Below, one piece after another: positions 54,205-64,000 of a stretch of DNA of 64,000 bases (positions are counted from its first letter, which is position 1; each line of letters begins with the position of its first letter). This DNA is from Komagataeibacter sucrofermentans DSM 15973 (lineage in GTDB: Bacteria > Pseudomonadota > Alphaproteobacteria > Acetobacterales > Acetobacteraceae): positions 1,740,001 to 1,804,000 of the forward strand of contig NZ_CP137157.1 of NCBI RefSeq assembly GCF_040581405.1, in the 5' to 3' direction. The notes below the pieces were generated by a model. It searched no databases, was not told the origin of the DNA, and saw only the letters and a list, made by a program, of their open reading frames with translations. The translations under genes were made by a program, and so were the position numbers.

Positions 54205-55155
54205 ATGGAGTTCCCGTTGGATATACGCCGACTACAGGCTTTTATTAAAATTATCGACCTTGGCAGCATTTCGCGTGCGGCTGACCTGCTCAATATTGCC
54301 CAGCCCGCATTGAGCCAGCAACTGGCCACACTTGAGAATGCTTTCAAGCAGAAGCTTGTCATCCGCAGCAAGAGCGGCGTAACCCCCACCACCGCCGGGG
54401 CGGAACTGTACCGGCATGCCCAGACCCTGACCAAACAGTTCGACCGGGCAATGGTTGAAATCAGCCAGGGGTCAGGCCCGCTGGTGGGCAAGGTCTCGGT
54501 CGGGCTATCTCCCTACAGCGCTGGGTCCACGCTTTCGGTCAAGCTGCTGCAGCTCGTGCGCGAGCGCCTGCCCAACATTACCCTGCACCTGACCGAAAGC
54601 TTTGATGACATATACAGCGAACTGATCATGACCGGGCGGCTGGACATGGCGGTGATTCATGGCGCAGGCCCCATCAAGGGCGTTATTTTCACACCGCTGA
54701 TGAAGGAAGAATTCTTCCTGCTCGCGCCACATGACCTGGAATTCCCCCAGAATGAAAAAGGCGCCGTGCAGCTTGCTGACATTGCCGACATTCCCCTGCT
54801 GCTGCCGCCCAAGCATAATTTTGTCCGCAAAAGCGTGGACATGGCCTTCATACGCAAGCAGCTTGAACCCCGCATCGTGGCCGAAATCGAGGCGCTGATT
54901 ACCCTGCAGGGCGCCATAGAGCAGGGCATTGGCAGCACCATCCTGCCCTGGTCCGTTGCCAGCCGCATTGTCGTGCCGGGCAAGTCGCGTATCTTTCCGC
55001 TGCACAACCCCGTCATTCAGGAAGACGTTTCGCTCTGTATTCCCGAAATCATTCCCGAGACCGAGGCCTCGGTAGCGGTGCGTGAACTCCTCATTGACCT
55101 CGCCAAGACCATGGCCGCCTCACATAACTGGCCGGGCGCCCAGCCTTTCGGCTGA
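54205..55155 (+). CDS. LysR-family transcriptional regulator
   Basis: A 316-residue LysR regulator. The N-terminal helix-turn-helix reads LDIRRLQAFIKIIDLGSISRAA then LNIAQPALSQQLATLE, and the effector domain follows. The early sequence recalls the nitrogen-assimilation-control (Nac) group, but that is impressionistic. It is divergent from the receptor gene and convergent with aspA, with only 4 bases between the stops. Either neighbour could be a target. Confidence 0.9.
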   Translation: MEFPLDIRRLQAFIKIIDLGSISRAADLLNIAQPALSQQLATLENAFKQKLVIRSKSGVTPTTAGAELYRHAQTLTKQFDRAMVEISQGSGPLVGKVSVGLSPYSAGSTLSVKLLQLVRERLPNITLHLTESFDDIYSELIMTGRLDMAVIHGAGPIKGVIFTPLMKEEFFLLAPHDLEFPQNEKGAVQLADIADIPLLLPPKHNFVRKSVDMAFIRKQLEPRIVAEIEALITLQGAIEQGIGSTILPWSVASRIVVPGKSRIFPLHNPVIQEDVSLCIPEIIPETEASVAVRELLIDLAKTMAASHNWPGAQPFG

Positions 55156-55159
55156 AGGT

Positions 55160-56659
55160 TCAGAGCGCACCACGCCCGATATTGGGGCGGGTCAGCGCAT
55201 CGGGCTGCAACAGGGCCGCAAGCTGTTCGGGCGAAAGCAGCCGGTCCTCCACGATCAGATCCGTCACCTTGCGGTCTTCAGCCAGTGCGCGCTTGGCAAT
55301 GGCCGAGCAGATATCGTAACCCAGCACCGGCACCAGGGCTGTAATGATGCCGATATTAAGGTCAAACAGATACTGACACCGCGCCCGATCAGCACAAATG
55401 CCGCTGATGCAGCGCGTGGTCAGGGTTTCGATAGCGGCGCGTAATGTTTTGATCGATGTAAACAGGCAATAGCCAATCATCGGTTCAAACGGATTGAGCT
55501 GCAACTGCCCGCCATCGGCGCACATCGTAACGGTCAGGTCGTGACCCGCAACCAGATAAGCCACCTGATTAACTGCCTCGGGTATGACGGGATTGACCTT
55601 GCCCGGCATGATGGAAGACCCGGCCTGCACCGCTGGCAGCACGATTTCGCCTATCCCCGTGCGCGGCCCGCTCGACAGCAGGCGCAGGTCGCTGGACATT
55701 TTTGACAGTTTGAGCGCGAGGCGCTTGAGCGCGCCCGAAAACAGCACAAAAGCACCCACATCCGATGTCGCCTCGATCAGGTCGGGCGAGCTGCTCATGG
55801 GCCGCCCGGTCAGGCTGCGCAGTTCCGCCATGACAGCGGGGGCATAGCGCGGGTCGGTATTCAGCCCCGTGCCAATGGCGGTACCGCCCAGGTTGACCTG
55901 CTCAAAGGCTGCAGCATGGGCCTTTATGCTCCTGATTTCTTCCGCCACAGAACTGCGGAATGCCCCGAATTCCTGCCCCAGCGTCATGGGCACGGCATCG
56001 CGCAACTGCGTACGGCCAACCTTCAGGATGGCATCAAACGCCTCTGCTTTTTCATCCAGCGCCGCGTGCAGCCCATCAAGGGCCGCCACCAGCGGATCGA
56101 CAGCCAGCAGCAGGCCAAGACGGAGCGCTGTGGGATAAACATCATTGGTGGACTGCGCCATGTTGACATGGTCATTGGGGTGCAGCACGCTGTAGGTGCC
56201 CGGTTTTTCCCCCAGCAGCCCCAAGGCGACATTGGCAATGACCTCGTTGGCATTCATGTTCGTCGACGTGCCTGCCCCACCCTGCATGGCATCCACCACA
56301 AACTGCGCGCGATAGGCGGGGTTTTGCAGGATCTGCTGGCAGGCGGCGTCAATGGCATTGGCGCGCGTGGGGTCGAGGTAGCCCAGCGCAAGGTTGGCCC
56401 GCGCCGCTGCCTGCTTGACGATAGCCAACCCCTGCACCAGCTCGGGAAAACTGCCGATCGTGGTGCCGCTTATGGGAAAGTTATCCAGCGCGCGCCTTGT
56501 ATGCACGCCCCATAGCACGCCGGGGGGCAGCGTGACCTCGCCCAACATGTCGCGCTCGACACGGGGGCCGGACTGCCCGCTCTCCGCTGCCACAGGGCTG
56601 GCCTGGCCCGTCAGGGTGCAGGTCGCGCCATCTCGCGCCGGAGCGGGCATATTAATCAT
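55160..56659 (-). CDS. aspA: Aspartate ammonia-lyase (aspartase)
   Basis: A 499-residue member of the fumarase/aspartase superfamily, converting L-aspartate to fumarate and ammonia. It shows GVHTRRALDNFPISG near residue 50, MQGGAGTSTNMNANEVIAN about residue 123 and the superfamily signature GSSIMPGKVNPVIPE about residue 348 with its catalytic Ser loop. The first 35 residues are an extra tail compared with typical enzymes. The sequence fits aspartase better than fumarase (GGAGTSTNMNANEV). Start at 56659 has GGGGA upstream. Confidence 0.9.
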   Translation of the reverse strand: MINMPAPARDGATCTLTGQASPVAAESGQSGPRVERDMLGEVTLPPGVLWGVHTRRALDNFPISGTTIGSFPELVQGLAIVKQAAARANLALGYLDPTRANAIDAACQQILQNPAYRAQFVVDAMQGGAGTSTNMNANEVIANVALGLLGEKPGTYSVLHPNDHVNMAQSTNDVYPTALRLGLLLAVDPLVAALDGLHAALDEKAEAFDAILKVGRTQLRDAVPMTLGQEFGAFRSSVAEEIRSIKAHAAAFEQVNLGGTAIGTGLNTDPRYAPAVMAELRSLTGRPMSSSPDLIEATSDVGAFVLFSGALKRLALKLSKMSSDLRLLSSGPRTGIGEIVLPAVQAGSSIMPGKVNPVIPEAVNQVAYLVAGHDLTVTMCADGGQLQLNPFEPMIGYCLFTSIKTLRAAIETLTTRCISGICADRARCQYLFDLNIGIITALVPVLGYDICSAIAKRALAEDRKVTDLIVEDRLLSPEQLAALLQPDALTRPNIGRGAL

Positions 56660-56807: not shown

Positions 56808-57269
56808 TCAGTCAGGCTGGATCTGCATGATTGCGGCGCCATATCCGACCAGTGCGCCAGCCTGCCCCGTCACTTCGGCAACCGTGCCCGCAACCGGTGC
56901 GGGAACGGGCACCTGCAGGCTGTCGAGTGTCAGGAGCGCTACAATATCGCCCTGCGCCACCTTGGCCCCGACTGGAGCAAAAGCGGCATCGCGTTGCGGA
57001 TGAGTCAGGCACAGATGACCAAAATACGGTGTTTTCACCGCTACCAGTCCGCCCCCGGCATCAGGCTGCGCTGCCGGGAGGGCATGAGGGGCTGTTGCAG
57101 CAGGTGCTGCCTGCCCCACGCGGATCCGCAGCTTCAGCCCCGCCGCCTCGTTGCACAGTTCCAGGCTTTCCAGCCCGGCCTGCGCCAGCCATGTCGCCAT
57201 CTGGCCAATCTGTTCAGGCTCTGGCAGCCGATCAAAATGGGGCACCAGCTGTTCGGACCGGTTGTTCAT
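56808..57269 (-). CDS. BCCP-like protein lacking the biotinyl lysine
   Basis: A 153-residue AccB-like protein. The N-terminal 55 residues resemble the helical start of biotin carboxyl carrier proteins, then a Pro/Ala linker and a C-terminal biotinyl/lipoyl-type barrel (about 80-153) follow. Where active BCCPs have EAMK, this protein has LDSLQV, so the acceptor Lys is replaced (Gln by alignment) and it is not expected to carry biotin. The ATG overlaps the biotin carboxylase stop by four bases, so it is the last gene of SDR-accB-accC. It might be a structural or regulatory subunit. Confidence 0.75.
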
Positions 57270-58633
57270 GAGGCTGTCCTTTGCGCAAGCCAGCGTTCAA
57301 GGTAGTGAATATCCACGCCGCCACGCGCAAATGCGGGGTCGGCCAGCAGGTCCTGATGCAGGGCGATGTTGGTTGACACCCCTTCCACCTTCATTTCCGC
57401 CAGCGCCACCCGCATGCGGGCAATGGCCTGCTCACGGGTCGCGCCGTAACTGATGATCTTGCCGATAAGCGAGTCATAATAAGGCTGCACCGTGTAGCCC
57501 GCCACGACATGCGTATCGACCCGGATGCCCGGGCCACCGGGCAGATCCCAGCGCGTGATGGTGCCGGGCGAAGGCATGAAGGTAAACGGATCCTCGGCAT
57601 TGAGGCGGCATTCAATGGCATGGCCGCGCAGCCCGATATCCGCCTGCGCGATGCCAAGCCGCTGGCCCTGGGCAATGCGCAGCTGCTCGGCCACGATGTC
57701 GATGCCTGTTGTCTCTTCCGTAATCGGGTGCTCGACCTGCACGCGGGTGTTCATCTCGATAAAGGCGAACACGCCATCTTCATACAGGAACTCGAACGTG
57801 CCCGCGCCACGGTAGCCGATACGCCTGCACGCTTCGGCGCAGCGTTCGCCAATTTCGGCAATGGTTTCGGGTGCGATGCCGGGGGCGGATGCTTCCTCCA
57901 GCACTTTCTGGTGGCGGCGCTGTAGCGAGCAGTCGCGCGCGCCCAGCCACAGCGCGGTGCCGTGGGTGTCGCACAGAACCTGAATTTCGATATGACGCGG
58001 CTTCTGCATGAAGCGTTCAAGATACAGCGTCGGGTTGCCAAAGGCCTGCTCGGCCTCCTTGGCGGTCAGCGTTACGGCCTGTGCCAGGTCCGCCACACGC
58101 TCGACCACGCGCATCCCGCGCCCGCCGCCACCACCTGATGCCTTGACGATGACCGGAAAGCCGACATCGAGCGCAATGGCCTTCACGGCGTCCATATCAG
58201 CGGGCAGCGGCCCGTCCGAGCCGGGCACGCAGGGCACGCCCGCCTCACGCATGGCGCGCTTGGCGGTAATCTTGTCGCCCATCATGCGGATGGAAGCCCC
58301 GGTCGGGCCGATGAAGGTCAGGCCCGCTTTTTCCACCACATCGGCAAAATCAGCATTTTCCGACAGGAAGCCGTAGCCGGGGTGAATGGCCTGCGCCCCG
58401 GTCAGCCGGGCGGCGAGCAGCAGCCCGTCGGGGTCGAGATAGCTGCGGGCTGCGGCGGCGGGGCCAATGCACAGCGCAACATCGGCCTCATGCACATGGC
58501 GGCTGTCGGCATCGGCTTCGGAATACACCGCCACCGTCTCCAGCCCGAGCTGGCGGCAGGCGCGCTGGATGCGCAGTGCGATCTCGCCGCGATTAGCGAT
58601 CAGCACCCGGTTGAAACGTGGGGTCTCACTCAT
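57266..58633 (-). CDS. Biotin carboxylase subunit (AccC-like)
   Basis: A 455-residue ATP-grasp enzyme that carboxylates biotin using bicarbonate and ATP. It contains [19 protein letters not shown] at the start, [10 protein letters not shown] about residue 83, the glycine-rich loop [12 protein letters not shown] about residue 160, and [17 protein letters not shown] about residue 285. The C-terminal domain is complete. The start overlaps accB (ATGA) and the stop overlaps the degenerate BCCP gene. The pxp genes opposite suggest it serves a dedicated carboxylase rather than acetyl-CoA carboxylase; that is inference. Confidence 0.92.
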
Positions 58634-59067
58634 GCCAGCCGGAACAGGGGGGTCCCTGCCTCCACTTCGGTGCCGTCTTCCACCAGCACGGCGGCGATCT
58701 TGCCAGCCTGCCCGGCACGGACGGCGTTGAACACCTTCATCGCCTCGACCAGGCCCACTTCCTGCCCTGCCTGCACGTCCTGCCCCACCGTTATGAACGG
58801 CGGCGCGCCCGGCGCGGGCGAGAGATGGAACACGCCATAGGACGGGGCGGCAATGACCGCCTCCTCCGCCACCGGCGGCGCAGCCTGTGGCGTGGCCGCT
58901 ACGGGCGCGGGAGCCACTCCTGCGGGCGGGGCGGATGGCGCAACCTCAGGCTGCGCACCGCCGCCACGGGTAATGCGGATACGGCAGCCGCCTTCCTCGA
59001 CCTCCAGCTCCGTGACCGGAGCCGTGGCCAGCAGGTCGATCAGCCGCCTGACATGCGTGAGATCCAC
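58630..59067 (-). CDS. Biotin carboxyl carrier protein (AccB-like)
   Basis: A 145-residue BCCP. The N-terminal helical segment ([20 protein letters not shown]) is followed by an Ala/Pro-rich linker. The C-terminal biotinyl domain has the intact VEAMKVFN motif about residue 110 for biotin attachment. It forms the first half of a carrier pair with the degenerate protein at 56808, and overlaps accC by four bases. It starts 5 bases after the SDR stop. Confidence 0.9.
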
Positions 59068-59072
59068 TGGTC

Positions 59073-59828
59073 TTACGCCGCGCCGGATGTCTTTTTGGCG
59101 AAGTTCAGCCCACCCACGACCTGCATGGTCGGCAGCACTTCCATGAAGCTGACATTCATGCGCTGCGGCGACATGACGGCGAAGGCGACGGAGTTTGCGA
59201 TATCCTCGGGCAGCAGGGACTCATATTCATCAAAGAATCGCTTCTTCGCCTCTTCCATGTTCCCGATCAGGCGGCCGAACACCTCGGTTTCGCAACGCGC
59301 GGGCGAGACTTCGGTCACGCGGATGCGACGGCCGAACAGGTCGCAGCGCAGCTGCTGCGAGAGCGAATGCACGCCTGCCTTGGTGGCGTGATAGACCGTG
59401 TTGCCCCCAGCAAAGGCGTAATGGCCCGCAATGGAGGTGATGTTGACGATATGCCCGCGATCACGCTCGATCATGCCGGCCACCACGAGGCGGGTCAGCT
59501 GCAGCACCGCGCGCAGGTTCACGTCCACCAGCGCATCGATATCCTCAGGCGTGGTGTTGGTGATGTTGCCCGTGCGCGACTGCCCGGCATTGTTGACCAG
59601 GATGTCGATCTCGAGACCCTTGACCAGCGCCTCGATCCCGGCCTGGTCGGACACGCTGACAGCGTGCACGACGCAGCCGGTTTCCTGCGACAGCTGCTCC
59701 AGCCGGGCCGCGTCACGCGCCAGGGCATGAACCTCGATCCCTTCCTGCGCCAGGCGGCGCACGATCTGCGCGCCAATGCCAGAAGATGCGCCAGTGACAA
59801 GGGCGGTACGATACGGCTGGTTGCTCAT
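59073..59828 (-). CDS. Short-chain dehydrogenase/reductase
   Basis: A 251-residue classical SDR. The cofactor motif is TGASSGIGAQIV about residue 12, NNAG about residue 85, Ser in ITSIAG about residue 132 and YHATK about residue 147. It resembles the YdfG/sepiapterin-reductase-like SDR group; substrate unknown. It is the first gene of the minus-strand unit with accB and accC and divergent from the pxp genes, so a role in the same pathway is likely. Confidence 0.88.
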   Translation of the reverse strand: MSNQPYRTALVTGASSGIGAQIVRRLAQEGIEVHALARDAARLEQLSQETGCVVHAVSVSDQAGIEALVKGLEIDILVNNAGQSRTGNITNTTPEDIDALVDVNLRAVLQLTRLVVAGMIERDRGHIVNITSIAGHYAFAGGNTVYHATKAGVHSLSQQLRCDLFGRRIRVTEVSPARCETEVFGRLIGNMEEAKKRFFDEYESLLPEDIANSVAFAVMSPQRMNVSFMEVLPTMQVVGGLNFAKKTSGAA

Positions 59829-60146
59829 GGTAAGAAAACCCGATCCTGAACAGAGAAACTAACACCACCCGGCCCCACAGCGGATACCGGATGCTCAGCT
59901 ATTGATTTTCATGCTAACGGCCATGAACAACAAGCGCCAAGAGCACTTCGTTCTCACGCCATAACATAATATGATGGCCCGGCTATCATGCTGAGCCATA
60001 AGATTATTCAATAGCCTCACAACCACAATTGCACTGGCCATCGTTACGTAAACGGTCATAGTATTGCAGTCGGCACTTCAGGCCGCGAAACCTATATTGT
60101 TACGGTTCAGGTTCAATAACCAGCGCCGTTCCAGGGACTGTGTATT
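59829..60146. other. Divergent intergenic region, SDR-acc / pxp
   Basis: About 320 bases between two divergent operons. An AT-rich centre (about 59950-60030, with CATAACATAATATGATGG) probably holds both promoters. I saw no clear operator palindrome and no gene. Confidence 0.45.
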
Positions 60147-60839
60147 TTGAACACGGATATAAAGAACGATGTGGCGCGCGATACCGCCGCGGCGCCTGCC
60201 ATAAGCATGATCGGCACACGCGCCATGCTGTTCGAGGCGCCGGGTGATTTCACCATGGCCCACCAGCGCCGGGTCTGGGCATTGATGGACGCAGCACAGG
60301 CGCGGCCCGACGTGTGCGAACTCATTCCCGGCGTGACCAACCTCATGCTGATCTTTTCCGCCCCGCCCGACAGCCCGCAGGCGGTGGCGGACTGGCTGTG
60401 CCATGCCTGGAACACCCTGCCCGAGCGGCACATCGAGGGAAAGCTGTTCGAGATCGGCGTGCGCTATGGCGGCGCGCTGGGCGAGGATCTGGCTGCGGTC
60501 TGCGCCCATTCGGGCCTGTCGCCGCAGGACGTCATTTCCATCCATCACGGTAGTGAATACACGGTCTGCGCCATTGGCAGCGCGCCGGGCTTTGGCTACC
60601 TGCATGGCCTTGACCCCCGCATCGCAACGCCGCGCAAGACCGTGCCATCGCTGAACATGCAGGCGGGTACCGTCATCATCGGCGGCATGCAGGCTGGCAT
60701 TTCCGCGCTGACAGGACCGAACGGGTGGAATTCCATCGGGTTTACCGACCTGCGCGTGTTCGATCCGTACAAACAGCCCCCTGCCCTGTTTGCCGTTGGC
60801 GATCGCATCCGCTTTTACCCCGAAAGCATCGAGCTGTGA
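60147..60839 (+). CDS. pxpB: 5-oxoprolinase subunit B / carboxyltransferase domain (PxpB, KipI-like)
   Basis: A 230-residue KipI/AHS1-domain protein. Typical segments are IHHGSEYTVCAIGSAPGFGYL about residue 131, ATPRKTVPSL and GGMQAGISAL, which are conserved in PxpB and in the carboxyltransferase half of urea carboxylase. The first usable start in frame is TTG 60147 with CAGGGA upstream; ATG 60207 would shorten it by 20 residues without losing the domain. The stop overlaps the next start (GTGA). Confidence 0.9.
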   Translation: MNTDIKNDVARDTAAAPAISMIGTRAMLFEAPGDFTMAHQRRVWALMDAAQARPDVCELIPGVTNLMLIFSAPPDSPQAVADWLCHAWNTLPERHIEGKLFEIGVRYGGALGEDLAAVCAHSGLSPQDVISIHHGSEYTVCAIGSAPGFGYLHGLDPRIATPRKTVPSLNMQAGTVIIGGMQAGISALTGPNGWNSIGFTDLRVFDPYKQPPALFAVGDRIRFYPESIEL

Positions 60840-61846
60840 TTACGATCCTTGAAACATCCGCCCTGAATACGGTGCAGGATCTCGGTCGCCCCGGATACCG
60901 TAATCTGGGCGTGGGCACGTCGGGCGCCATGGATGCGCTTGCCCTGCAGGTCGGCAATATCCTGCTGGGCAACCAGATGGATGATGCCTGCATAGAACTG
61001 CAGACCTATCCGTTCGTGCTGCGCTTTGACGCACCCGCCACCTTTGCCGTGACGGGCATGGACGCCGCGATCGAACTTGATGGCCGCACGATCCTGCCGT
61101 GGATGGTCGAGACGGCGGCGGCAGGCCAGGTGCTGCGCATCGGGCCGCCCAAGGCGGGCGCGCGCGGCTATATCTGCCTTGCCGGGGGCATTGAGGTGCC
61201 GGTGGTGCTGGGCTCGCGCAGCACGCAGTTGCGTGGCGGCTTTGGCGGGCTTGACGGTCGCCCGCTGGAGGCAGGCGATACGCTCAGGACCACGGGTGCC
61301 GCGCTGGATGTGGCGGGCTATGGCGCCCTGCCCCCCGCTGCGGTGCTGGATGCCGTAGCAGGCGGGGAGGATGCCAAGGTCATCAACCTGCGCGCGATGC
61401 CAGCAACCGATTACACCCTGTTCACACCCGAAGCCCAGCAGCGGCTGTGGGATACCGCCTGGCGCATTACGCCACAGAGCAACCGCGTCGGCTACCGCCT
61501 GTCGGGCGCCCCGCTTGAACTGCGCCACCGGGTTGAACTGCGCTCCTATGGCGTGATTGCCGGTATCGTGCAGGTTCCGCCCGCGGGCGAGCCGATCGTG
61601 CAACTGGCCGATGCCAATACCGTGGGCGGTTACCCGCGCATCGCCACCGTAATCGAGGCCGATCTGTGGCGACTGGCGCAGGCGCGCATCGGCATGCGCA
61701 TCCGCTTGCATGAATGCAGCTTTGCCGAAGGTGTTGCCGCCATGCAGCCGGTCAACGCCTATCTTGACGACCTGCGCATGATGGTTGCCCATTACCGCGC
61801 ATCCGCACGCAGCCGCGCTGGCATGAAATCTGGAGCCAAGGCATGA
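60836..61846 (+). CDS. pxpC: 5-oxoprolinase subunit C / biotin-dependent carboxyltransferase (PxpC, KipA-like)
   Basis: A 336-residue AHS2-domain protein beginning ITILETSALNTVQDLGRPGYR. It contains GARGYICLAGGIEVPVVLGSRST about residue 105 and SNRVGYRLSGAPLE about residue 222, both conserved in PxpC and in urea carboxylase/allophanate-type enzymes. The GTG at 60836 overlaps the PxpB stop by four bases and is the family start; the frame extends upstream to 60725 inside pxpB. It overlaps pxpA (ATGA). Confidence 0.93.
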   Translation: MITILETSALNTVQDLGRPGYRNLGVGTSGAMDALALQVGNILLGNQMDDACIELQTYPFVLRFDAPATFAVTGMDAAIELDGRTILPWMVETAAAGQVLRIGPPKAGARGYICLAGGIEVPVVLGSRSTQLRGGFGGLDGRPLEAGDTLRTTGAALDVAGYGALPPAAVLDAVAGGEDAKVINLRAMPATDYTLFTPEAQQRLWDTAWRITPQSNRVGYRLSGAPLELRHRVELRSYGVIAGIVQVPPAGEPIVQLADANTVGGYPRIATVIEADLWRLAQARIGMRIRLHECSFAEGVAAMQPVNAYLDDLRMMVAHYRASARSRAGMKSGAKA

Positions 61847-62604
61847 AGATCGACCTCAATTCCGACATGGGCGAAGGTTTTGGCCGCTGGCGCATTGCTG
61901 ATGATGACGGGTTGATGGACACCGTCTCATCAGCCAATATCGCCTGTGGTTTCCATGCCGGTGACTACGCCATCATGGACCGCACCGTGCGACTGGCGAA
62001 GGAAAAGGGCGTGGGCATTGGCGCCCATCCCGGCCTGCCCGACCTGATGGGCTTTGGCCGCCGCACCATGGCCGTGTCCGATGCAGATATGGAATCCATG
62101 ATGTGCTACCAGATCGGCGCGCTGCAGGGCATTGCCGCCCGCCACGGCCATCGGGTGACCCATGTCAGTTACCATGCCGCCTTTGGCAACATGGCCAATG
62201 CGGATGAGGGCCTTGCCCTGCGCCTGACCCGCGCCATCGCGGCCCTTGACCGGAACCTGAGCGTGTTCTGCATGCCCGGCCAGGCGACCGAGCGTGCCGC
62301 CGAGAAGGCCGGCCTGCGGGCACAGACCCTGTTCCTGGCCGATCGTGCCTATACCACGGCCGGCACGCTGGTGCCGCGCGGGCAGCCGGGTGCTGTCATT
62401 CACGACCTTGCGGGCGTGCGGGCGCGTGTGAAGCAGTTCCTGCATGACGGATCGGTCACGACCATTGACGGCGCACGCCTGCCGGTCAGGGCGCAGTCCA
62501 TTCTGGTGCACAGCGACACGCCGGGATCACTGGAACTCGCCCGCGCCATCCGCGCGGAAATCGAGGCAAGCGGGGGCGTGCTGACCCCTGCCTGCCAGCT
62601 TTAA
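61843..62604 (+). CDS. pxpA: 5-oxoprolinase subunit A, LamB/YcsF family (PxpA)
   Basis: A 253-residue enzyme with the LamB/YcsF signature MKIDLNSDMGEGFGRW at the start, SSANIACGFHAGDYAIMDRTV about residue 26 and GAHPGLPDLMGFGRR about residue 60. PxpA acts with PxpB and PxpC in ATP-dependent cleavage of 5-oxoproline to glutamate. Its start overlaps pxpC (ATGA), so pxpBCA is one coupled unit, in the common order. Confidence 0.94.
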   Translation: MKIDLNSDMGEGFGRWRIADDDGLMDTVSSANIACGFHAGDYAIMDRTVRLAKEKGVGIGAHPGLPDLMGFGRRTMAVSDADMESMMCYQIGALQGIAARHGHRVTHVSYHAAFGNMANADEGLALRLTRAIAALDRNLSVFCMPGQATERAAEKAGLRAQTLFLADRAYTTAGTLVPRGQPGAVIHDLAGVRARVKQFLHDGSVTTIDGARLPVRAQSILVHSDTPGSLELARAIRAEIEASGGVLTPACQL

Positions 62605-62777: not shown

Positions 62778-63710
62778 ATGAAGCATGACCTGAAACGTGG
62801 CGCCCTTCTTCTGGCATCGGCAACGTTTTTTACCGCCGCCCTCAATGCCCTGCAGAAACTGACCGGCTCCACGCTTCCCGCACTCGAGATCATTTTCTTC
62901 CGGAACCTGTTTTCGCTCCCCTTCGTGCTGCTGATTGCATCACGCAGCGGCATTGTGCTGAAAACACATCATTTTGGCGGCCATGTCCTGCGCTCGGTGG
63001 TGGGCCTGATCAGCATGATCATGGTCGTGATAACCGTGACCCGCCTGCCACTGGCCGAACAGCAGGTCCTGTCCTACACGCAGCCCCTGTTTCTGGTCCT
63101 GCTGTCGATACCGCTGTTGCATGAACGGCCCTCGCTCCAGCGCTGGGTTGCGGTCTCGATCGGGTTCTCAGGCGTGATCGTGGTGGCCCTTGGCAAGGGG
63201 CTGCTACATGGCCATGCCGCAACAGGCGCTGCCGTGCCCAACTGGGCCTATTTCGTGGCTCTGGCGCAGGGGGCCGTCGGCGCGCTGACCACCATGCAGA
63301 TACGCCAGCTTTCCGCCACGGAATCCAGCACCACAATCGCCCTGTGGCAGGCCATTCTCATGACGGTCATGACCGCGCTGCCGCTGCCCTTCATCTGGAC
63401 CACGCCGGGCCTGACCGAAGCGGGCTGCCTTGTTGCCGTGGGTGCCTTTGCCGGTATCGCGCAGGTGCTCCAGACCGAGGCCTTCGCCTCGGCGCAGGTC
63501 TCCGCCATTGGCCCGTTTGCCTATTCCGGGCTGCTCTGGGCCGCGCTGATCGGGTGGTTCGGGTTTGGCGAGATGCCCGGCATCGCCATGGGCATTGGCG
63601 GGCTGCTGATCATTGGCTCGGGCGTGTGGATGCTGCGCAATGACCGCCCGGCCAGGCAGAAAGTGGTGGCGGAAGGCACGATGGATGCCGCCACCGGCAC
63701 CCCGCCCTGA
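62778..63710 (+). CDS. DMT-superfamily permease (EamA type)
   Basis: A 310-residue, ten-helix-type transporter with two EamA repeats (LNALQKLTGSTLPALEIIFFRNLFSLPF and LPLAEQQVLSYTQPLFLVLLSI-type segments). It lies 173 bases after pxpA and could move a substrate or product of the pathway. It resembles the DMT gene at 49769-50683. Substrate unknown. A short AT-rich stretch upstream may hold its own promoter. Confidence 0.85.
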   Translation: MKHDLKRGALLLASATFFTAALNALQKLTGSTLPALEIIFFRNLFSLPFVLLIASRSGIVLKTHHFGGHVLRSVVGLISMIMVVITVTRLPLAEQQVLSYTQPLFLVLLSIPLLHERPSLQRWVAVSIGFSGVIVVALGKGLLHGHAATGAAVPNWAYFVALAQGAVGALTTMQIRQLSATESSTTIALWQAILMTVMTALPLPFIWTTPGLTEAGCLVAVGAFAGIAQVLQTEAFASAQVSAIGPFAYSGLLWAALIGWFGFGEMPGIAMGIGGLLIIGSGVWMLRNDRPARQKVVAEGTMDAATGTPP

Positions 63711-63766: not shown

Positions 63767-64000
63767 GTGACAACAGGTGAAATGACCACCGACGCCCGAA
63801 GCAGGCGCGCAATTCCTGCCCGCTACGTGTTCTTCTTTCTTGTCTTCCTGATGTACGCCATTAGCTATGGCGACCGCGCGGCGCTCTCCATCGCCCTGCC
63901 CACGATGGGCAGGGAGTTTTCGCTGACACCGGTGCAGATGGGCTGGGTCTCGTCGAGTTTCCTGTGGTCATATTTCCTGCTCAACCTGCCCTCGACCATC
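63767..64000 (+). CDS. MFS transporter, ACS-family-like, 3' partial
   Basis: The first 78 residues of a major-facilitator permease cut by the window edge. RYVFFFLVFLMYAISYGDRAALSIALPTM and GREFSLTPVQMGWVSSSFLWSYFLLNLP are the typical first two helices and motif of the anion:cation symporter (hexuronate/galactarate/phthalate) family. GTG 63767 has CAGGAG nine bases upstream; ATG 63782 is an in-frame alternative. Substrate cannot be told. Confidence 0.8.
   Translation, partial: MTTGEMTTDARSRRAIPARYVFFFLVFLMYAISYGDRAALSIALPTMGREFSLTPVQMGWVSSSFLWSYFLLNLPSTI

Follow-up and report, generated by a model that had tools for sequence, protein, structure and literature searches.

The enzyme PxpABC is, reportedly since work by Niehaus in 2017, an ATP-dependent 5-oxoprolinase. 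Its PxpB and PxpC subunits are similar to the urea carboxylase carboxyltransferase, but descriptions of PxpABC make it an ATP-driven enzyme, and PxpBC is assumed to phosphorylate 5-oxoproline (PMC13274462). Lombard and Moreira (2011) raised the possibility that lone urea-carboxylase-type carboxyltransferase genes might serve other biotin carboxylases (PMC3199775). We analyzed a gene cluster that bears on this question in a 64,000-nucleotide stretch of the genome of Komagataeibacter sucrofermentans DSM 15973 (contig NZ_CP137157.1, positions 1,740,001 to 1,804,000; hereafter the window). Here, genes for a biotin carboxylase (accC), a biotin carboxyl carrier protein (BCCP; accB) and a carrier-like protein without the biotinyl lysine, which we named psiB, lie beside homologues of pxpB, pxpC and pxpA. 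We give a probability of roughly one half to the reading that these genes encode a multi-subunit enzyme, split and similar to urea carboxylase, for the activation and opening of an amide or lactam, such as 5-oxoproline or a substituted relative, with PsiB as a scaffold; the reaction, the substrate, the order of steps and the part played by PsiB are those we infer. Six small genes make the question testable.

The union of acc and pxp genes is already partly known, and psiB is the new element. A six-gene operon of Staphylococcus aureus with pxpB, pxpC, pxpA, accB and accC is described in a report in which accBC are read as fatty-acid genes (PMC11315280), and the pairing is also annotated in lactobacillus and rhizobial records. 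The pairing, which the original prediction called unexplained, is thus less so. In the available part of a report on Lactiplantibacillus pentosus, an extra acetyl-CoA carboxylase pair and pxpBC are given without a link between them (PMC12427679). A literature search of titles and abstract openings returned no account of a bacterial lysine-less carrier beside pxp genes.

The cluster consists of two divergent operons, SDR-accB-accC-psiB on the minus strand and pxpB-pxpC-pxpA-EamA on the plus strand, and all named genes are open frames. The minus-strand operon begins with a gene for a short-chain dehydrogenase/reductase (SDR; 59073..59828), followed by accB (58630..59067), whose product has an intact VEAMKV motif, accC (57266..58633), identified by its NCBIfam profile, and psiB (56808..57269); accB and psiB each overlap accC by 4 bases. 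A divergent intergenic region (59829..60146) separates this operon from the plus-strand genes for a PxpB-type carboxyltransferase subunit (CT_C_D; 60147..60839), a PxpC-type carboxyltransferase subunit (CT_A_B; 60836..61846, with a GTG start) and a PxpA-type LamB/YcsF hydrolase (61843..62604), again with 4-base overlaps between neighbors. All frames and families that the original prediction had placed here, a biotin carboxylase and a BCCP with EAMK divergent from pxpB, pxpC and pxpA, plus an SDR, were found as described; its inventory had overlooked psiB at the start of the interval. The closest named records to the cluster, by PxpB scan and PxpC tree, were from Komagataeibacter and Novacetimonas.

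Linkage between acc and pxp genes was evaluated in 150 Pseudomonadota genomes, 45 of which contained 61 places matching CT_A_B: 19 urea-carboxylase-sized frames, the window, one contig-end piece and 40 standalone loci that were fetched. All 19 urea-carboxylase-sized frames held all domains in one frame. The accC gene was close to 12 of the 40 standalone loci, in three architectures (chance P of about 1e-11 to 1e-9 at an assumed rate of 2-3% per locus). Class I (28 loci) had no accC nearby. Class II, the window's kind, comprised three loci with accB, accC and a lysine-less carrier, and class III another three with pxpA, accB, accC, pxpB and pxpC, in which no psiB was found. In the six class IV loci (L074, L080-L082, L089 and L094), PxpB and PxpC, fused in five, were encoded beside a biotin carboxylase frame of 583-888 residues whose tail carried an (E/D)AMKM motif in all six; as a set, they resemble a urea carboxylase split into two or three chains, with PxpA.

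A scan of species genomes with class II PxpB gave 225 relatives, and counts for related loci refer to the best 80 of these, which belong to Acetobacteraceae (43), Rhizobiales, Rhodobacterales and Enterobacterales (7). Genes present at the 80 loci were pxpC (80), pxpA, psiB and SDR (78 each), LysR (76), accC (71), EamA (56) and AspA-like (37), with L142 (a contig end) and L156 (an acc-psiB-pxpA module about 11 kb away) scored as misses and L196 covering 14.8 kb only. Co-occurrence of acc with pxpBC, which the original prediction proposed to check, thus recurs as a gene set in most of these relatives, and a lack of linkage in relatives, which it named as evidence against itself, was not what we found. 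The PxpC tree comprised 85 rows after removal of near copies (eight loci of class II, roughly half the urea carboxylases and the majority of the 80 relatives), and class II PxpC sequences formed their own starred clade in it. Chance neighborhood was rejected on the 12 standalone loci and 71 relatives with accC: the association of acc with pxp genes extends over families and orders. In some Acetobacteraceae genomes, the window-type cluster is accompanied by a second, separate pxpB-pxpC-pxpA-accB-accC-psiB set (L124, L126-L129 and L061), which has its own lysine-less carrier.

The acc pair of the cluster is not the only one in the cell. The genome contains a second carrier and biotin carboxylase, adjacent to one another (matches at C1:2826464-2826682 and C1:2827690-2828007), and the only two biotin carboxylase C-domain matches in the genome are those of the cluster and of this pair. 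The two AccC proteins are 58% identical and the two AccB proteins 34% identical. A sole AccBC, the other finding that would have spoken against the original prediction, was therefore rejected. The cluster AccC scored above the cut-off of TIGR00514, the acetyl-CoA carboxylase equivalog (656 vs. 626.5), and AccB slightly below its own equivalog cut-off (107 vs. 115). The AccC score would suit a surplus half of an acetyl- or acyl-CoA carboxylase lying beside pxp by chance, and the S. aureus and L. pentosus papers, as far as their accessible portions go, likewise take extra acc genes as fatty-acid or acetyl-CoA carboxylase genes (PMC11315280; PMC12427679). The second accBC in the genome, the linkage found at 71 of the 80 loci and the fused architectures make this explanation highly improbable. 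Judged by sequence, the cluster has the broad gene content of a biotin-dependent carboxylase, with AccC, AccB bearing EAMK, and CT_A_B and CT_C_D genes.

The psiB gene product is a Biotin_lipoyl protein (Pfam E-value 7e-9) and a BCCP paralogue with an AccB-like N-terminal domain and a biotinyl-type barrel. Its profile match spans residues 23-175 of E. coli AccB, that is, it has the AccB N-terminal domain in common; it is 25% identical to the AccB of its own cluster, and its predicted structure has a BCCP fold. Carriers were counted as proteins scoring at least 28 bits and not fused to accC in loci L043-L103 and L124-L212, and were assigned to PsiB or AccB by whichever profile scored better; rows outnumber distinct sequences because of duplicated genomes. 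In the alignment, the lysine was absent from all 105 PsiB rows (92 of 92 distinct sequences); 89 of the 90 distinct AccB-type carriers (103 rows) had it. The one AccB-type carrier without it, the second of L078, has a serine, scores higher with the AccB profile and groups with AccB on a long branch.

Two simpler views of psiB were rejected. A pseudogene is at odds with its retention in 78 of the 80 related loci, and purifying selection is among the points shown, as are gene content and conservation. An ordinary AccB variant is at odds with the 30 best PsiB-profile matches in the 150 genomes, where only three, the locus of the window and two class II loci, lacked the lysine and the other 27 were lysine-bearing carriers adjoining accC. 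The position of psiB varies with gene order among loci: in rhizobia it lies between accC and pxpB, and in Paracoccus a carrier without EAMK sits between pxpC and pxpA and scores 52 with the PsiB profile vs. 26 with the AccB profile.

Plant BADC proteins, BCCP paralogues that belong to a biotin-dependent carboxylase, are described as proposed inhibitors in vivo (PMC11926652). PsiB shares the defining trait of BADC-type proteins, being a conserved BCCP homologue without the biotinylation lysine, and is best read as a putative non-biotinylated, BADC-like scaffold subunit. A negative regulator or decoy, which would compete with AccB for AccC or fend off the housekeeping AccBC and be dispensable to an otherwise identical enzyme, accords with the BADC proposal and with the AccB N-terminal domain in PsiB. 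We consider such a decoy unlikely, since psiB is retained in loci from which accBC is gone and is there the only carrier-like gene found.

The PxpB, PxpC and PxpA homologues of the window match their families to different degrees. PxpB scored above TIGR00370, a 5-oxoprolinase equivalog (165 vs. 145.6), and PxpA above a PxpA subfamily cut-off and below the PxpA equivalogs. PxpC passed the broad TIGR00724 cut-off and fell far under the PxpC 5-oxoprolinase equivalog (281 vs. 500), and its predicted structure was matched best by E. coli YbgK (5dud). The whole genome contains one CT_C_D match, that of PxpB, and one CT_A_B match, that of PxpC, and no match to Hydantoinase_B. Lys1605 of Kluyveromyces lactis urea amidolyase is described as the likely general base (PMC5770610). 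This position is lysine in all 19 urea carboxylases and all three class III sets. Class II has its own PxpB motif, SAPGFGYLHGLDPRIATPRK, and, in the GEPIVQLADANT loop of PxpC, a characteristic Q and N; these class-specific residues may reflect a substrate other than that of class I.

Several of these observations would suit an ordinary, ATP-dependent, biotin-free 5-oxoprolinase, in which case acc and psiB would modulate PxpABC or serve another step of the pathway. The PxpB and PxpA scores, the presence of a single CT_A_B and CT_C_D match with no Hydantoinase_B match in the genome, the arginine that replaces the urea-carboxylase lysine, the Enterobacterales loci that lack accBC, and two further loci of the same clade (L073 and L125) with neither accBC nor psiB nearby all agree with it. 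The low PxpC score, the separate class II clade and PxpB motif, the linkage to accBC in three architectures and the PDB entry 9yx5 argue against it, and we regard a biotin-free enzyme as rather improbable.

The strongest outside evidence for a carboxylase comes from the chain names and alignments of 9yx5. Its chains V and W are allophanate hydrolase subunits 2 and 1, which align like the Mycobacterium smegmatis entry 3mml, and 9yx5 is listed among entries with AccA3, a subunit with biotin carboxylase and BCCP parts. Near-identical alignments to 3mml and the titles of 9yx0-9yx4 suggest that 9yx5 is likewise from M. smegmatis. PxpB and PxpC homologues thus occur together with a biotin carboxylase-BCCP subunit, so such a union exists, in homologues only. 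The class IV locus L082 matches 3mml and 9yx5 strongly.

A split urea-carboxylase-like enzyme would work as follows. With ATP and bicarbonate, AccC would load a carboxyl group onto the biotin of AccB, and PxpB-PxpC, as carboxyltransferase, would transfer this group to the amide of the substrate. Hydrolysis of the activated ring by PxpA would then yield an amino acid, and a downstream aminotransferase could convert this amino acid to a 2-oxo acid. PsiB would be the assembly or docking subunit that joins the AccC-AccB module to PxpBC, as BADC proteins do in plant acetyl-CoA carboxylase.

Several observations weigh against this scheme. The Lys1605 position is arginine in the PxpB of the window and in the aligned class I, II and IV PxpB proteins, and no PxpB or PxpC residue set urea carboxylase and classes II, III and IV jointly apart from class I. 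In seven loci of Enterobacterales (Rahnella, Pantoea and Erwinia), psiB, pxpBCA and SDR occur without accBC within 15-21 kb. L073 and L125, although placed in the class II PxpC clade, lack both accBC and psiB within 19.5 kb, and the genome of L125 holds another, complete set (L049). Lastly, genome G051 has accB-accC-psiB-pxpA and no CT_A_B match anywhere. Subunit 1 of 9yx5 also has arginine at the Lys1605 position, so arginine does not exclude union with a biotin carboxylase. The urea-carboxylase-like split enzyme of the original prediction gained from the linkage across orders, the fused PxpB-PxpC beside a biotin carboxylase-BCCP frame and 9yx5, and lost from the replaced general-base lysine and the 7 of 80 loci without accBC.

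To judge by these seven loci, a biotin carboxylase of its own is not indispensable to the system. PsiB is the only carrier found in them, and because their PxpC sequences are nested inside the alphaproteobacterial class II clade of the PxpC tree, a loss of accBC with retention of psiB is probable. Six Enterobacterales genomes were searched for AccC-sized frames: Rahnella laticis, Pantoea SOD02 and Pantoea RIT-PI-b each had one free-standing frame besides urea-carboxylase-sized ones, one of the other three had two, and two were fragmentary. We tentatively extend the scheme to a so far unrecognized enzyme, found mostly in plant-associated bacteria, that would open lactams by biotin-dependent N-carboxylation. 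Its sixth subunit, biotin-less PsiB, would dock the biotin carboxylase module on PxpBC and, in Enterobacterales without accBC of their own in the cluster, would let the enzyme borrow the module of the fatty-acid acetyl-CoA carboxylase; this is possible rather than probable. The G051 module (L059, 8195-12018) reads SDR-accB-accC-psiB-pxpA and is flanked by transposase-like frames, so pxpBC may have been lost from it. In L055 (4160-5180) and L166, Acetobacter pasteurianus-type loci, pxpC is broken over two frames, and some members are therefore decaying.

The neighboring genes give hints about the substrate. An aminotransferase gene lies outside the window after a gene for a major facilitator superfamily transporter that is cut by the window end (63767..64000, plus strand). 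This aminotransferase (G000:C1:1805161-1806363) is 65.5% identical to a rhizobial one, and 79 of the 80 related loci have a match (tblastn E-value of 1e-15 or better; median identity 66%). Two rhizobial records have as neighbors an amino-acid ATP-binding cassette transporter, an aminotransferase, an SDR and a 4-carboxy-4-hydroxy-2-oxoadipate aldolase. Because of the aminotransferase matches and these rhizobial transporter and aldolase neighbors, the product is likely an amino acid that is then transaminated. The rhizobial neighbors also hint at a substituted glutamate lactam, or substituted pyroglutamate, as the substrate. The aldolase was matched in 33 of 80 related loci and in none of the 43 Acetobacteraceae loci, and two Enterobacterales matches that were inspected were only 32-34% identical; the substituted lactam therefore stays a guess. 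The EamA-type transporter gene (62778..63710, plus strand) is 3' of pxpA in most Acetobacteraceae loci. The other side of the cluster is flanked by genes for an AspA-like lyase of the aspartase/fumarase family (55160..56659, minus strand) and a NAC-like LysR regulator (54205..55155, plus strand; 303.6 bits vs. a cut-off of 309).

The window set shares its three pxp families with PxpABC (YbgJKL; KipI/KipA/YcsF) and encodes them in the order pxpB-pxpC-pxpA. It differs from PxpABC in a PxpC below the equivalog, in its own clade and motif, and in the linked accB, accC, psiB, SDR and aminotransferase genes. The biotin carboxylase, BCCP, CT_A_B and CT_C_D domains of urea carboxylase and urea amidolyase (3va7 and 5i8i) are all represented, but on separate chains, with Lys1605 replaced by arginine and with PxpA and PsiB in addition. 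The M. smegmatis proteins Msmeg0435-0436 (3mml) and 9yx5 likewise combine PxpB and PxpC homologues with arginine at the Lys1605 position, whereas the sets closest to 9yx5 are those of class IV, not the class II of the window, and no separate PsiB-like chain was matched in 9yx5.

Sets with accB, accC and pxpABC in one operon and without psiB are represented by class III, Lactiplantibacillus and, as far as its description goes, the S. aureus six-gene operon (PMC11315280). The cluster in the window suggests that acc genes beside pxp have been misread as fatty-acid genes. Unlike the window, the three sampled Pseudomonadota class III sets retain the urea-carboxylase lysine in PxpB, and psiB is not among the annotated genes of the Lactiplantibacillus operon. 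This operon has a putative hydro-lyase gene between accC and pxpA (L215, 8765-9553), which we take to resemble ycsI of the Bacillus operon. Plant BADC and PsiB are both BCCP paralogues without the biotinylation motif, according to the description of BADC (PMC11926652). BADC is a subunit of the plastid heteromeric acetyl-CoA carboxylase, whereas PsiB is found in bacteria, in connection with PxpBC and pxp clusters, and as such offers a bacterial counterpart of BADC.

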